From Paludibacteraceae bacterium (GTDB taxonomy: Bacteria > Bacteroidota > Bacteroidia > Bacteroidales > Paludibacteraceae), in NCBI GenBank assembly GCA_024401555.1, contig JAKSKV010000026.1, positions 1 to 46,278 on the forward strand: DNA of 46,278 nt, read 5' to 3'. Position numbers and translations under genes: made by a program. This document shows positions 7,027 to 41,835 of this stretch, one piece after another. Within the stretch, counting starts at the first letter, position 1, and every line of letters begins with the position of its first letter. The notes beneath the pieces were generated by a model. That model saw only the letters and a list, made by a program, of their open reading frames with translations, did no database searches and had not been told where the DNA came from.

Positions 7027-8964
7027 ATGATTTCAGTAGATAAACTGACGATCCGTTTTGGCGGTGTTACGCTGTTTAATGATATTTCCTATGTGGTGAA
7101 TCCGAAGGACCGTATCGCTTTGGTCGGTAAGAACGGAGCGGGAAAGAGTACGATGTTGAAGGTGTTTGCAGGTATTCAGCCCGCATCCAGCGGAAGCGTC
7201 TCTGTTCCGAAGGATGTGACGATTGGCTATTTGCCTCAGCACATGATCCATGACGATGGTGTGACGGTGATGGAAGAGGCGGAAAAGGCCTTCTCCGATA
7301 TCTTCAAGTTGCAGCAGGAGATTGAACGAATGACTTTGGAATTGGCGGAACGGACCGATTACGAATCCTCTTCCTATCAGCAATTGATCGATAGATTGAC
7401 CCATGCCAACGAGCGTTTGGATATGATGGGTGTGAACAATTTCAAAGGCGAAGTGGAGAAGACGCTGCTCGGCTTGGGATTTGTCCGCTCTGATTTTACC
7501 AGGCAAACCAGCGAGTTTAGCGGTGGTTGGCGTATGCGTATCGAACTAGCGAAGATATTGTTGAAACGTCCGGATGTGCTGCTGTTGGACGAGCCCACCA
7601 ACCACTTGGACATCGAGTCCATCCAATGGTTGGAGGATTTCTTGAAATCCTGCGGTAGCGCGGTGATTTTGGTGTCGCACGACCGTGCCTTCATCGATGC
7701 GGTGACCAACCGTACCATCGAAATCTCCTTGGGTAAAATTTACGATTATAAGGTCTCTTATTCCAAATATGTTGAGTTGCGTAAGGAACGTCGTGAACAG
7801 CAGTTGCGCGCCTACGAGAATCAGCAGAAACAGATTCAGGAGACGGAGGATTTCATCGAGAGGTTCCGTTACAAGGCTACAAAATCCAATCAGGTGCAAT
7901 CTCGTATCAAACAGTTGGAGAAGTTGGATATCATCGAGGTGGATGATGAGGATAATTCAGCGTTGCGTCTGAAATTTCCTCCCGCTCCCCATTCGGGAAC
8001 GATTACGGTGGAGGCACAACACCTGACCAAAAGATATGACAACAATGTTGTATTGGACGATATAGACATCACCATTAAACGTGGCGAGAAGGTGGCCTTT
8101 GTCGGAAAGAACGGTGAGGGTAAATCTACGTTGGTGAAGTGTATCATGGAGCAGATCCCTTACGAGGGAATGTTGAAATTGGGCCATTTGGTGAAGATTG
8201 GTTACTTTGCGCAGAATCAGGCGTCGCTGTTGGATGATAACTTAACTGTGTATGAGACGATTGATCATGTGGCAGTCGGTGATATCCGTACGAAGATCCG
8301 TGATATTTTAGGTGCCTTTATGTTTGGTGGCGAGGCTTCCGACAAGAAGGTGAAGGTCCTTTCCGGAGGAGAACGCACTCGTTTGGCGATGATTCGATTG
8401 CTCTTGGAACCAGTCAATTTCTTGGTGCTCGATGAGCCTACGAACCACTTGGATATGCGTTCGAAGGATGTCTTGAAAGATGCGATCAAAGCCTTTAACG
8501 GCACGGTGGTGGTCGTGTCGCACGATAGAGAGTTCCTTGATGGCTTGGTGGACAAGGTGTATGAGTTCGCCAACCATAAGATCAAGGAGCATTTGGGTGG
8601 AATCTACGATTTCTTACAGGCGAAGAAGATGGCCTCGCTTCAGGAGTTGGAGCGCAAAGCGGAGACGCAAAAGAGTGAAGTGAAGGAGGAGACTCCTTCT
8701 GACAATAAGCTCTCATACGAAGCTAAGAAAGAACTCACCAAACGGATCCGTAAGGCAGAGAAGGCTGTCTCCGATGCGGAGGCTGCCATCGCTTCCATAG
8801 AGCAACGTATCGCTGAAATAGAGACGGAACTTCAAAATCCGGAGAATGCCACCAATAGCGCTCTCTTTGACGAATACCAGAAGCGAAAGCATGAACTCGA
8901 ACAAAAAATGTACGAGTGGGAATTGCTTTCCGATGAGTTGGAGGCGGTGAAGGCTGAGGCCTAA
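7027..8964 (+). CDS. ABC-F family ATPase (ribosome-associated, Uup/YheS-like)
   Basis: Cytoplasmic tandem ABC ATPase without membrane segments. The family acts on the ribosome in translation control or antibiotic protection. ABC1 has Walker A GKNGAGKST at residues 34-42, signature FSGGWRMR and Walker B LLLDEPTNHLD (about 185). ABC2 has GKNGEGKST (about 359), signature LSGGERTRLA and LVLDEPTNHLD (about 466). The inter-domain P-site linker (about 235-315) is rich in Arg, Lys and Gln. The C-terminal 100 residues form a charged coiled coil typical of Uup-like members. Its last base lies next to the convergent nuclease gene at 8965, leaving no room for a separate terminator. Confidence 0.93.
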   Translation: MISVDKLTIRFGGVTLFNDISYVVNPKDRIALVGKNGAGKSTMLKVFAGIQPASSGSVSVPKDVTIGYLPQHMIHDDGVTVMEEAEKAFSDIFKLQQEIERMTLELAERTDYESSSYQQLIDRLTHANERLDMMGVNNFKGEVEKTLLGLGFVRSDFTRQTSEFSGGWRMRIELAKILLKRPDVLLLDEPTNHLDIESIQWLEDFLKSCGSAVILVSHDRAFIDAVTNRTIEISLGKIYDYKVSYSKYVELRKERREQQLRAYENQQKQIQETEDFIERFRYKATKSNQVQSRIKQLEKLDIIEVDDEDNSALRLKFPPAPHSGTITVEAQHLTKRYDNNVVLDDIDITIKRGEKVAFVGKNGEGKSTLVKCIMEQIPYEGMLKLGHLVKIGYFAQNQASLLDDNLTVYETIDHVAVGDIRTKIRDILGAFMFGGEASDKKVKVLSGGERTRLAMIRLLLEPVNFLVLDEPTNHLDMRSKDVLKDAIKAFNGTVVVVSHDREFLDGLVDKVYEFANHKIKEHLGGIYDFLQAKKMASLQELERKAETQKSEVKEETPSDNKLSYEAKKELTKRIRKAEKAVSDAEAAIASIEQRIAEIETELQNPENATNSALFDEYQKRKHELEQKMYEWELLSDELEAVKAEA

Positions 8965-40569: not shown

Positions 40570-40735
40570 TGCGGTGATGATGAATGATGCGCAGGCTTGG
40601 CCTCCATCAGCCTCCCCTCCGATAGGAAATTAAATCCAATCCTTGTTTTGTGTAGAACTGGAATTTCCTGTCGCAGGATATGAGCGGCATCTTGTTGGTT
40701 ATCGCATGTGCGATGATGACATGGTCGCTGGGATC
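40570..40735. repeat. 166-bp exact direct repeat, copy A (back end of cassette 1)
   Basis: Identical base for base, by eye, to 41314-41479. It covers the last 42 codons and stop of the PIN gene, starting exactly at the DPSDH motif, plus 37 bases of 3' flank. Confidence 0.9.
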
Positions 40736-41035
40736 TCGATGGTCTTGGTTGACGTTGATATCCAGAGTTGCGAATGTCTGCATGTGCTCTTCTTTAACGG
40801 GTAGAATAGTGATGTTAAGCACGTTTTTAATTGTGTGGATAATATCTTCGCTGTACTGACATTCTCGAAATTTTAATCCTTTGTTTTTGAACGCTATGAT
40901 TAATTCTCTGACTGTTTCGATGCTGATGCAAAATTCATTATCGTAGTCGTCAAATAAATTACGGACCTCTTTCCCTAGTAGTTCCGGCTCTGTCGTGGCA
41001 AACAAAAATGTGCAGGTGTCAAGTAGGTATCTCAT
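40607..41035 (-). CDS. PIN-domain protein, VapC-like toxin candidate (full length)
   Basis: Predicted single-strand RNA endonuclease of a toxin-antitoxin pair. At 142 aa it has the whole PIN fold with the acidic residues expected at the metal site: Asp6 (YLLDTC), Glu40 (ISIETVREL), Asp104 in DPSDHVIIAHA and Asp122 (LISCDRKF). The ATG overlaps the TGA of the small upstream ORF (ATGA), the classical coupled arrangement of antitoxin then toxin. The last 42 residues are identical in DNA to those of the second PIN gene at 41351-41638. Toxicity is inferred from the family and the layout. Confidence 0.85.
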   Translation of the reverse strand: MRYLLDTCTFLFATTEPELLGKEVRNLFDDYDNEFCISIETVRELIIAFKNKGLKFRECQYSEDIIHTIKNVLNITILPVKEEHMQTFATLDINVNQDHRDPSDHVIIAHAITNKMPLISCDRKFQFYTKQGLDLISYRRGG

Positions 41036-41193
41036 TTCTTTTCTTCATTTATTAATTGCTCTCTAAGCGCAACCCATTTTGGGTAGGTGATTGTCCATAG
41101 CCCTTTGTGTTTTTGGATTGCTTCCCATGTTTTATTCAACCTTTTCTTTCCTTGGGAGGAGGGAGAATTCATCTCATTGTGAATTGGTTCCAT
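41032..41193 (-). CDS. Small antitoxin-like protein of cassette 1 (53 aa)
   Basis: Short ORF directly upstream of the PIN gene, sharing ATGA with its start. The protein starts MEPIHNE, is Lys/Trp/Gln-rich and contains KTWEAIQKHKG and TYPKWVAL. It aligns with the 49-aa protein of cassette 2 (same MEPIHNE start, KKR..KTWEA, K.KG, TYPK.V.L), which supports it being a real gene under selection. I recognise no AbrB, ribbon-helix-helix, HTH or Phd motif, so if it is the antitoxin it is of an unfamiliar type. Its 5' leader and first seven codons lie in the 59-bp repeat. Confidence 0.7.
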   Translation of the reverse strand: MEPIHNEMNSPSSQGKKRLNKTWEAIQKHKGLWTITYPKWVALREQLINEEKK

Positions 41194-41230
41194 AGTCTTG
41201 ATGTTTTAATCATTAAACAAATAAATTTTA
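41172..41230. repeat. 59-bp exact direct repeat, copy A (front end of cassette 1)
   Basis: Identical to 41763-41821. It spans the first seven codons of the small ORF and its leader up to just before the -7 promoter box. Confidence 0.9.
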
Positions 41231-41232
41231 CG

Positions 41233-41262
41233 CAAATGTAGAAAATGTTTTGGAATTTCAAA
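41233..41262 (-). promoter_or_regulatory. Promoter of PIN cassette 1
   Basis: On the - strand TACATTTG (complement 41233-41240) is the -7 box and TTTG (complement 41259-41262) sits 18 bases upstream as the -33 box. The leader is about 35 bases. Cassette 2 has the same -7 box. Confidence 0.65.
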
Positions 41263-41270
41263 AGGGGCTG

Positions 41271-41289
41271 GGGCGTTTTCAAAACGCCC
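41271..41289. repeat. REP-like palindrome between the two PIN cassettes
   Basis: GGGCGTTTT-C-AAAACGCCC, identical to the core at 62-80. It lies upstream of cassette 1's promoter and downstream of cassette 2's PIN gene, in the junction between the cassettes. Confidence 0.7.
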
Positions 41290-41313
41290 AAACAATGCGA
41301 TGCATCTCTTGTT

Positions 41314-41479
41314 TGCGGTGATGATGAATGATGCGCAGGCTTGGCCTCCATCAGCCTCCCCTCCGATAGGAAATTAAATCCAATCCTTGTTTTGTGTAGA
41401 ACTGGAATTTCCTGTCGCAGGATATGAGCGGCATCTTGTTGGTTATCGCATGTGCGATGATGACATGGTCGCTGGGATC
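41314..41479. repeat. 166-bp exact direct repeat, copy B (back end of cassette 2)
   Basis: Copy of 40570-40735 at an offset of 744 bases, in the same orientation. Confidence 0.9.
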
Positions 41480-41638
41480 CTTGTGATTCTCTGCTTCATT
41501 TATGGAGAGTTTTCCATAGGTGATGATTTGTTCCTTTGAGATCGGGAGAATCTCGATTATGATTTGAACATCAGGAGATAATAGTTCATAGTCTTGTGTT
41601 AGGTGAATGAGAGCGCATGTGTCAAGCATGTATCTCAT
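41351..41638 (-). CDS. Internally shortened PIN-domain protein of cassette 2 (95 aa)
   Basis: Matches the full-length PIN neighbour at both ends (YMLDTC with Asp6; DPSDHVIIAHA with Asp57; LISCDRKF with Asp75; identical last 42 residues). It lacks about 47 residues in the middle, in frame, including the segment with the conserved Glu40. Without that acidic residue and the helices around it, catalysis is doubtful. It may be an inert remnant or act as a decoy. An ATG 12 bases upstream (41650) is in frame, but the one at 41638 overlaps the small ORF stop by ATGA exactly as in cassette 1, so it is preferred. No frameshift or stop is seen. Confidence 0.8.
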   Translation of the reverse strand: MRYMLDTCALIHLTQDYELLSPDVQIIIEILPISKEQIITYGKLSINEAENHKDPSDHVIIAHAITNKMPLISCDRKFQFYTKQGLDLISYRRGG

Positions 41639-41784
41639 TCTCCTTTGCATTCTTTTGTTAGGTTGACGAATTTAGGATAGGTGACCCAACCTGTCCCTTT
41701 GGATTTTAGTGCGGCTTCCCAAGTTTTGCTGACTCTTTTCTTGTCTTTCTCGCAATTGATCTTCTCATTGTGAATTGGTTCCAT
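41635..41784 (-). CDS. Small antitoxin-like protein of cassette 2 (49 aa)
   Basis: Counterpart of the 53-aa protein at 41032-41193: same MEPIHNE start, then DKKRVSKTWEAALKSKGTGW and TYPKFVNLTKE. It is diverged in sequence but matches in layout, with its TGA overlapping the PIN ATG. Pairwise conservation around KTWEA and TYPK suggests these are functional residues. It may be a cognate antitoxin, retained beside a shortened toxin. Confidence 0.7.
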   Translation of the reverse strand: MEPIHNEKINCEKDKKRVSKTWEAALKSKGTGWVTYPKFVNLTKECKGE

Positions 41785-41821
41785 AGTCTTGATGTTTTAA
41801 TCATTAAACAAATAAATTTTA
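41763..41821. repeat. 59-bp exact direct repeat, copy B (front end of cassette 2)
   Basis: Copy of 41172-41230 at an offset of 591 bases, in the same orientation. The difference from the 744-base offset of the back-end repeat reflects the 153-base shorter middle of cassette 2. Confidence 0.9.
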
Positions 41822-41827
41822 TCATTG

Positions 41828-41835
41828 CAAATGTA
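41828..41835 (-). promoter_or_regulatory. -7 box TACATTTG of PIN cassette 2
   Basis: Same box as in cassette 1, five bases further from the repeat. ATTG (complement 41854-41857) lies 18 bases upstream as a weak -33 element. Confidence 0.55.

Follow-up and report, generated by a model that had tools for sequence, protein, structure and literature searches.

How toxin-antitoxin pairs gain a new specificity without a mismatched, harmful intermediate is a question raised in concrete form by two tandem gene cassettes of a Paludibacteraceae bacterium. Each cassette joins a small open reading frame (ORF) to a gene for a PIN protein, and the two cassettes have identical ends around strongly divergent middles. 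The window analysed here is the whole 46,278-nt stretch of DNA, which makes up an entire contig (C79) of a genome that comprises 159 contigs and is 99.83% complete.

A mosaic pair of tandem PIN cassettes

Both cassettes lie on the minus strand, B (41821 to 41314) followed by A (41230 to 40570), and no further copy was seen in their own genome. They sit between an OmpA/PD40-type gene and a long ORF running off the contig (window 42297-46277; at least 1327 aa, surface-protein-like by eye). The order in each cassette is leader, small ORF and PIN gene, with an ATGA overlap joining the two genes. The features are as follows:

41763..41821, minus strand: cassette B shared front, identical to 41172-41230
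41635..41784, minus strand: cassette B small ORF, 49 aa, putative antitoxin; Pfam matches below cut-off only
41351..41638, minus strand: PIN B, 95 aa, probably inactive after losing 47 internal residues; PIN score 31 bits
41314..41479, minus strand: cassette B shared back, identical to 40570-40735
41231..41313, minus strand: spacer between the cassettes, from 41271 part of a dispersed intergenic repeat of the same genome
41172..41230, minus strand: cassette A shared front, covering the leader and the small ORF's first 22 nt, identical to 41763-41821
41032..41193, minus strand: small ORF of cassette A (53 aa), a putative antitoxin without a family in Pfam, NCBIfam, PADLOC or PHROGs
40607..41035, minus strand: PIN A, 142 aa; Pfam PIN score 39.9 bits, cut-off 23.6
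40570..40735, minus strand: cassette A shared back, from PIN residue 101 through the stop codon to 37 nt beyond, identical to 41314-41479

The cassette fronts run without a difference for 59 nt (37 nt of leader and 22 nt of the small-ORF start) and the backs for 166 nt (129 nt of coding sequence, from PIN residue 101 at the DPSDH motif to the stop codon, and 37 nt past it), with a core between them whose 283 aligned columns show 54.8% identity. When the 557 aligned A/B columns were shuffled 10,000 times, a run as long as either of these never arose. The gene order with its overlap, the identical ends, the divergent middle and the start of the back at DPSDH had all been given in a preliminary description and hold here, as does its claim that this is no simple duplication: recombination is needed because identical silent sites and post-stop sequence adjoin a 55% core. 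Weaker A/B homology extends about 20 nt past the identical tracts, which are thus found inside older, diverged homology, as in gene-converted paralogues.

Both PIN proteins exceed the Pfam PIN cut-off, and NCBIfam VapC models match them only far below cut-off. PIN A is a single-domain protein of 142 aa, with no constant N-terminal delivery part of the kind found in polymorphic toxins, and it retains Asp6, Glu44, Asp104 and Asp122, acidic residues that we take, from their placement in the PIN fold, to be the catalytic positions. PIN B is 47 residues shorter through an in-frame loss that includes the Glu44 region, a point absent from the preliminary description. Among 86 related PINs, surveyed by a regular expression whose 23 exceptions were then read individually, the Glu is absent at that position only from PIN B and a 60-aa remnant (L216). 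PIN B is probably inactive, as judged from its sequence, since the in-frame loss removed a Glu that full-length relatives keep. No solved structure matched PIN A at an E value of 0.01 and no relative of PIN B was found in viral contigs; relatives of PIN A are present in 55 plasmid records, every one below 60% identity. Neither the 53-aa nor the 49-aa window ORF matched any family above cut-off in Pfam, NCBIfam, PADLOC or PHROGs.

The window's own ends are confined to their own genome, apart from a 65-nt match at a contig edge in the relative G008. Among 200 genomes, own included, the back matched 6, closely only in G008 (65 nt, 95%), at the point where that contig begins; there the two genomes agree in each of the final 18 PIN residues, although their OmpA regions are 80% alike and the sequence after the stop codon has diverged. 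The front matched 5 of 61 genomes, own included, with four relatives at 78%, one of them also having a short stretch at 86%. The OmpA-type gene is present in 16 of 16 genomes of the genus, own included, and on its upstream side in 14 relatives PIN sequence was found in G008 only, again at the contig edge (the stretches compared measured 5-6 kb in most relatives, with shorter ones in G011, about 600 nt, and G008, 150 nt). A search for other cores between the same ends, as the preliminary description had proposed, thus yielded none for the window's own ends in the 200 genomes compared with the back and the 61 compared with the front, and succeeded in relatives with other ends (G292/G064, G378 and, more weakly, G294), as set out below.

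These sequences make it probable that the tandem cassettes recombined homologously through their conserved ends. The preliminary description had offered conversion of the ends or exchange of the cores; recombination through the ends stands, and import of a foreign core is not needed in the window because the core data are compatible with A and B being sisters (p-AU 0.5). The new specificities that it expected of chimeric PIN proteins are hypothetical, and PIN B has probably lost its activity. We lean towards end conversion of an old tandem pair as a reading at least as good as core import, because diverged homology passes the tracts and the two cores are not rejected as sisters. The window would then carry a tandem pair that is old and diverged, with conversion having restored identity at its ends, and the internal loss in PIN B would have come later.

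Rather doubtful, in our judgement, is the import of a core into the window, by which a recent tandem duplication was followed by replacement of one core with a diverged one through the identical ends. Such an import would agree with fixed-end core replacement as the simplest reading of the G292/G064 locus, and G002 has a nucleotide core slightly closer to those of A (69%) and B (64%) than these are to each other (61%); yet the possible sisterhood of A and B speaks against it, the diverged homology outside the tracts suggests an older pair, and a search of 358 family genomes for a type-B donor core yielded nothing more than general PIN likeness. End conversion of an old pair remains the reading that we favour for the window.

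Two observations concern repeated sequence around the cassettes. The spacer repeat, which contains the palindrome GGGCGTTTTGAAAACGCCC, occurs at window 41271-41330 and 61-86 and at L002, L003, L004, L005 and L092, and two copies include a part resembling the cassette tail. The leader was considered as a genome-wide element and rejected as such: its 15-nt core has 8 exact matches in 16 genus genomes, 6 of which are these cassettes (the reversed control gave 0 matches).

The same-ends layout across the family

PIN A has 95 matches (E 1e-8) in 68 of the 358 family genomes. The cassettes compared number 87, window B included and 8 matches left out, and a few of them are truncated or partial. A small upstream ORF, 33-89 aa long with a median of 49, is present in 85 of these 87; the 2 cassettes without it were excluded from the pair comparison, leaving 85 cassettes and 3570 pairs.

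The same-ends pattern is rare in PIN cassettes. When likeness of at least 80% is required of both front and 3' tail, and of less than 70% in the core, a cut that, like the looser one below, was set after the pattern was first seen, it appears in 3 of the 3570 pairs: window A/B, L027/L129 in G378, and L135/L137 across G292 and G064. This amounts to 2 of 35 within-genome pairs, drawn from 17 genomes, compared with 1 of 3535 between-genome pairs. At a cut of 72%, again with the core below 70% and for PIN cassettes only, the counts are 3 of 33 within genomes and 4 of 3472 between them (p 2.6e-5). The looser cut adds G294 to the within-genome pairs, and its between-genome pairs are G292/G064 together with G235/G306, G312/G309 and G278/G346, the last three having backs of 56-63%. 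The layout recurs in further genera of the family, where the ends are different ones.

Some likeness of the backs is to be expected. Within-genome pairs alike at the back only are found in G083 (91%), G064 (81%) and G428 (80%), and a G227 pair, with 81% at the front and 77% at the back, likewise lacks the pattern. The PIN back end is conserved in general, which raises back identity; the silent sites and the tails are not so explained.

Three-segment fits place the breaks in similar zones. The front break lies within antitoxin nt 17-36 in three of the four pairs, G294 being the exception with a break ahead of the start codon; all four have the back break at PIN residues 101-118, so that the boundary seen at DPSDH in the window recurs. 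No permutation (500 per pair) gave as good a fit. The G378 cassette front occurs a third time, at the end of a contig (G378:C15:7021-7161; L260, L261), where a further G378 core may lie hidden.

Trees were built from 33 of the 87 cassettes, hand-chosen, by a quick search. The core data reject sisterhood for L135+L137 (p 2e-49), L020+L134 (p 9e-35) and L033+L130 (p 0.019); in addition to A+B, they do not reject it for L027+L129 of G378 (p 0.57). From the short back, core-sharing pairs were not rejected (p 0.055, 0.11 and 0.44), and one such pair was grouped anyway.

Two cores at one locus and a possible route to new pairing

The clearest case outside the window joins two genomes at a shared locus. 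The cassettes of G292 and G064 lie behind an upstream flank of 4914 nt that is 97.8% identical, and the fit divides them into a front of 97%, a back of 93% and a core of 55% identity, the first nine antitoxin codons being the same. The front, the back and the tail of each are nearest to those of the other, and the nearest core is that of G282 for G292 (92%) and that of G324 for G064 (84%). What the comparisons establish is thus that the mosaics break in similar zones and that, in relatives, a single locus can hold different cores between ends that are alike; as far as sequences can tell, core replacement in relatives is well supported.

The locus is also a patchwork, because an additional gene separates flank from cassette in G292, whose downstream genes differ from those of G064. 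This patchiness, together with the tandem pair in the window, lends something to an explanation without replacement, in which deletion between shared ends removed one cassette of an ancestral alike-ended tandem pair in one lineage and the other cassette in the other. We consider it unlikely, as no inspected genome has the two cores side by side at this locus; 14 of 178 genus genomes match the back end or the following sequence, and part of these were inspected. Core replacement is kept as the simplest reading of this locus.

The shared back of G292 and G064 continues via a leader into the next gene (L222/L223, about +560 to +660 from the PIN start), and after this shared gene start the two genomes bear different surface-protein-like genes. 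Similar leaders are present in other genomes of the genus.

On the mechanism that we propose, the front end would consist of the leader and the first antitoxin codons and the back end of the PIN C-terminal part and the 3' tail, and host homologous recombination would use the leader and the conserved C-terminal region of PIN. The middle, comprising the N-terminal part of PIN and the bulk of the small ORF, would diverge or be replaced as one piece. Because the two genes overlap within the stretch that is exchanged, the small ORF and the PIN N-terminal part would travel together, and one-piece replacement would preserve a matched pair. The core presumably carries the pairing specificity, and its exchange may be useful. 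Extended to the family, this suggests, tentatively and at somewhat less than even chances, that short-antitoxin PIN modules diversify by exchanging a matched core, made up of the presumed toxin-binding part of the antitoxin and the PIN N-terminal part, between fixed ends, within genomes and between species, with the leader and the PIN C-terminal end serving as adaptors and new pairing arising in one step. If true, new specificity could be gained simply, by moving a matched core in one piece between fixed ends, much as toxin-immunity cassettes do. The G292/G064 alleles and the window pair offer natural test material for matched-core replacement.

Parts of this picture have precedents, with gene conversion between VapBC paralogues already reported and joint toxin/immunity replacement known in polymorphic toxins. 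The window modules resemble VapBC type II toxin-antitoxin systems in having a PIN protein behind an overlapping small ORF. A DNA-binding domain in the antitoxin is usual in VapB, and the window modules differ in that their small ORFs match no antitoxin family above cut-off. Gene conversion has been described in vapB25-vapC25 and vapB31-vapC31 of M. tuberculosis (PMC13061034), in a preprint where no account of cores swapped between constant ends was found. Toxin-antitoxin modules are known to be mobile and to recombine within genomes (PMC2701414), and in polymorphic toxin-immunity cassettes one recombination event swaps the toxin part and brings in the partner gene (PMC3482391). Those toxins keep a constant N-terminal delivery part and vary the C-terminal toxin, whereas the window's PIN keeps its C-terminal part and has no delivery part. 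The ComQXPA quorum-sensing locus has conserved flanks around comQXP. In Bacillus, comQXP is highly polymorphic and tied to specificity groups (PMC4408185); ComQXPA is a signalling system and the window modules are toxin-antitoxin-like, so this is a resemblance only. A literature search that left subscription papers mostly aside found no report of cores exchanged between fixed ends in PIN modules.

Repeats, leader arrays and mobility

Direct repeats of at least 30 nt and at least 80% identity flank 18 of 67 PIN cassettes and 10 of 256 control ORFs in 20 genomes (Fisher p 1.6e-7). Together with small modules separated by repeats in some relatives, a likeness to integron arrays, they could point to integron-like or other site-specific cassette movement, which is nevertheless very unlikely: the integron integrase model exceeded its cut-off in 0 of 24 genomes (best 105.8 of 265 bits, in G057), and the flanking repeats differ from genome to genome. 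An integron was rejected on the lack of an integrase above cut-off in these 24 genomes, the point in which the modules are unlike integron arrays. Weak matches to the integrase occur in 21 of the 24 genomes, and a common attC-like form was not noticed in the folded repeats of six loci, judged from the folds alone.

Recurring leaders of about 30-75 nt were observed in two relatives. In G312 (L168, contig C49) one leader recurs before successive modules, at 7760, 8291, 8897 and 9509, and precedes a ParE-type pair, a PIN pair, an unknown pair and a surface-protein-like ORF of 2149 aa. In G347 (L176, contig C33) a leader recurs at 1290, 1804 and 2418 before the partners of ParE- and YoeB-type toxins.

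That the layout is an assembly artefact, or that selection alone holds the ends alike, is the least probable explanation: although the genome is a 159-contig draft and contigs of G008, G014 and G378 terminate inside shared cassette parts, which fits further unresolved copies, the layout is present in separate assemblies, and the identity extends over silent sites and 37 nt past the stop.

A second PIN cassette (L085-L088) is 99.3-100% identical over 99-695 nt in G002:C1, G003:C29, G004:C6 and G014:C14, in genomes whose OmpA regions are only 75-88% alike. A mobile cassette with fixed borders was considered for these four genomes and rejected, as the neighbouring blocks are 79 to 97% identical and the copies have neighbours in common. 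Local recombination suffices for this cassette, because block identities vary and the copies share variable-region neighbours. The match in G014 runs to its contig end, and the copy in G003 lacks the 3' part from about PIN codon 95.
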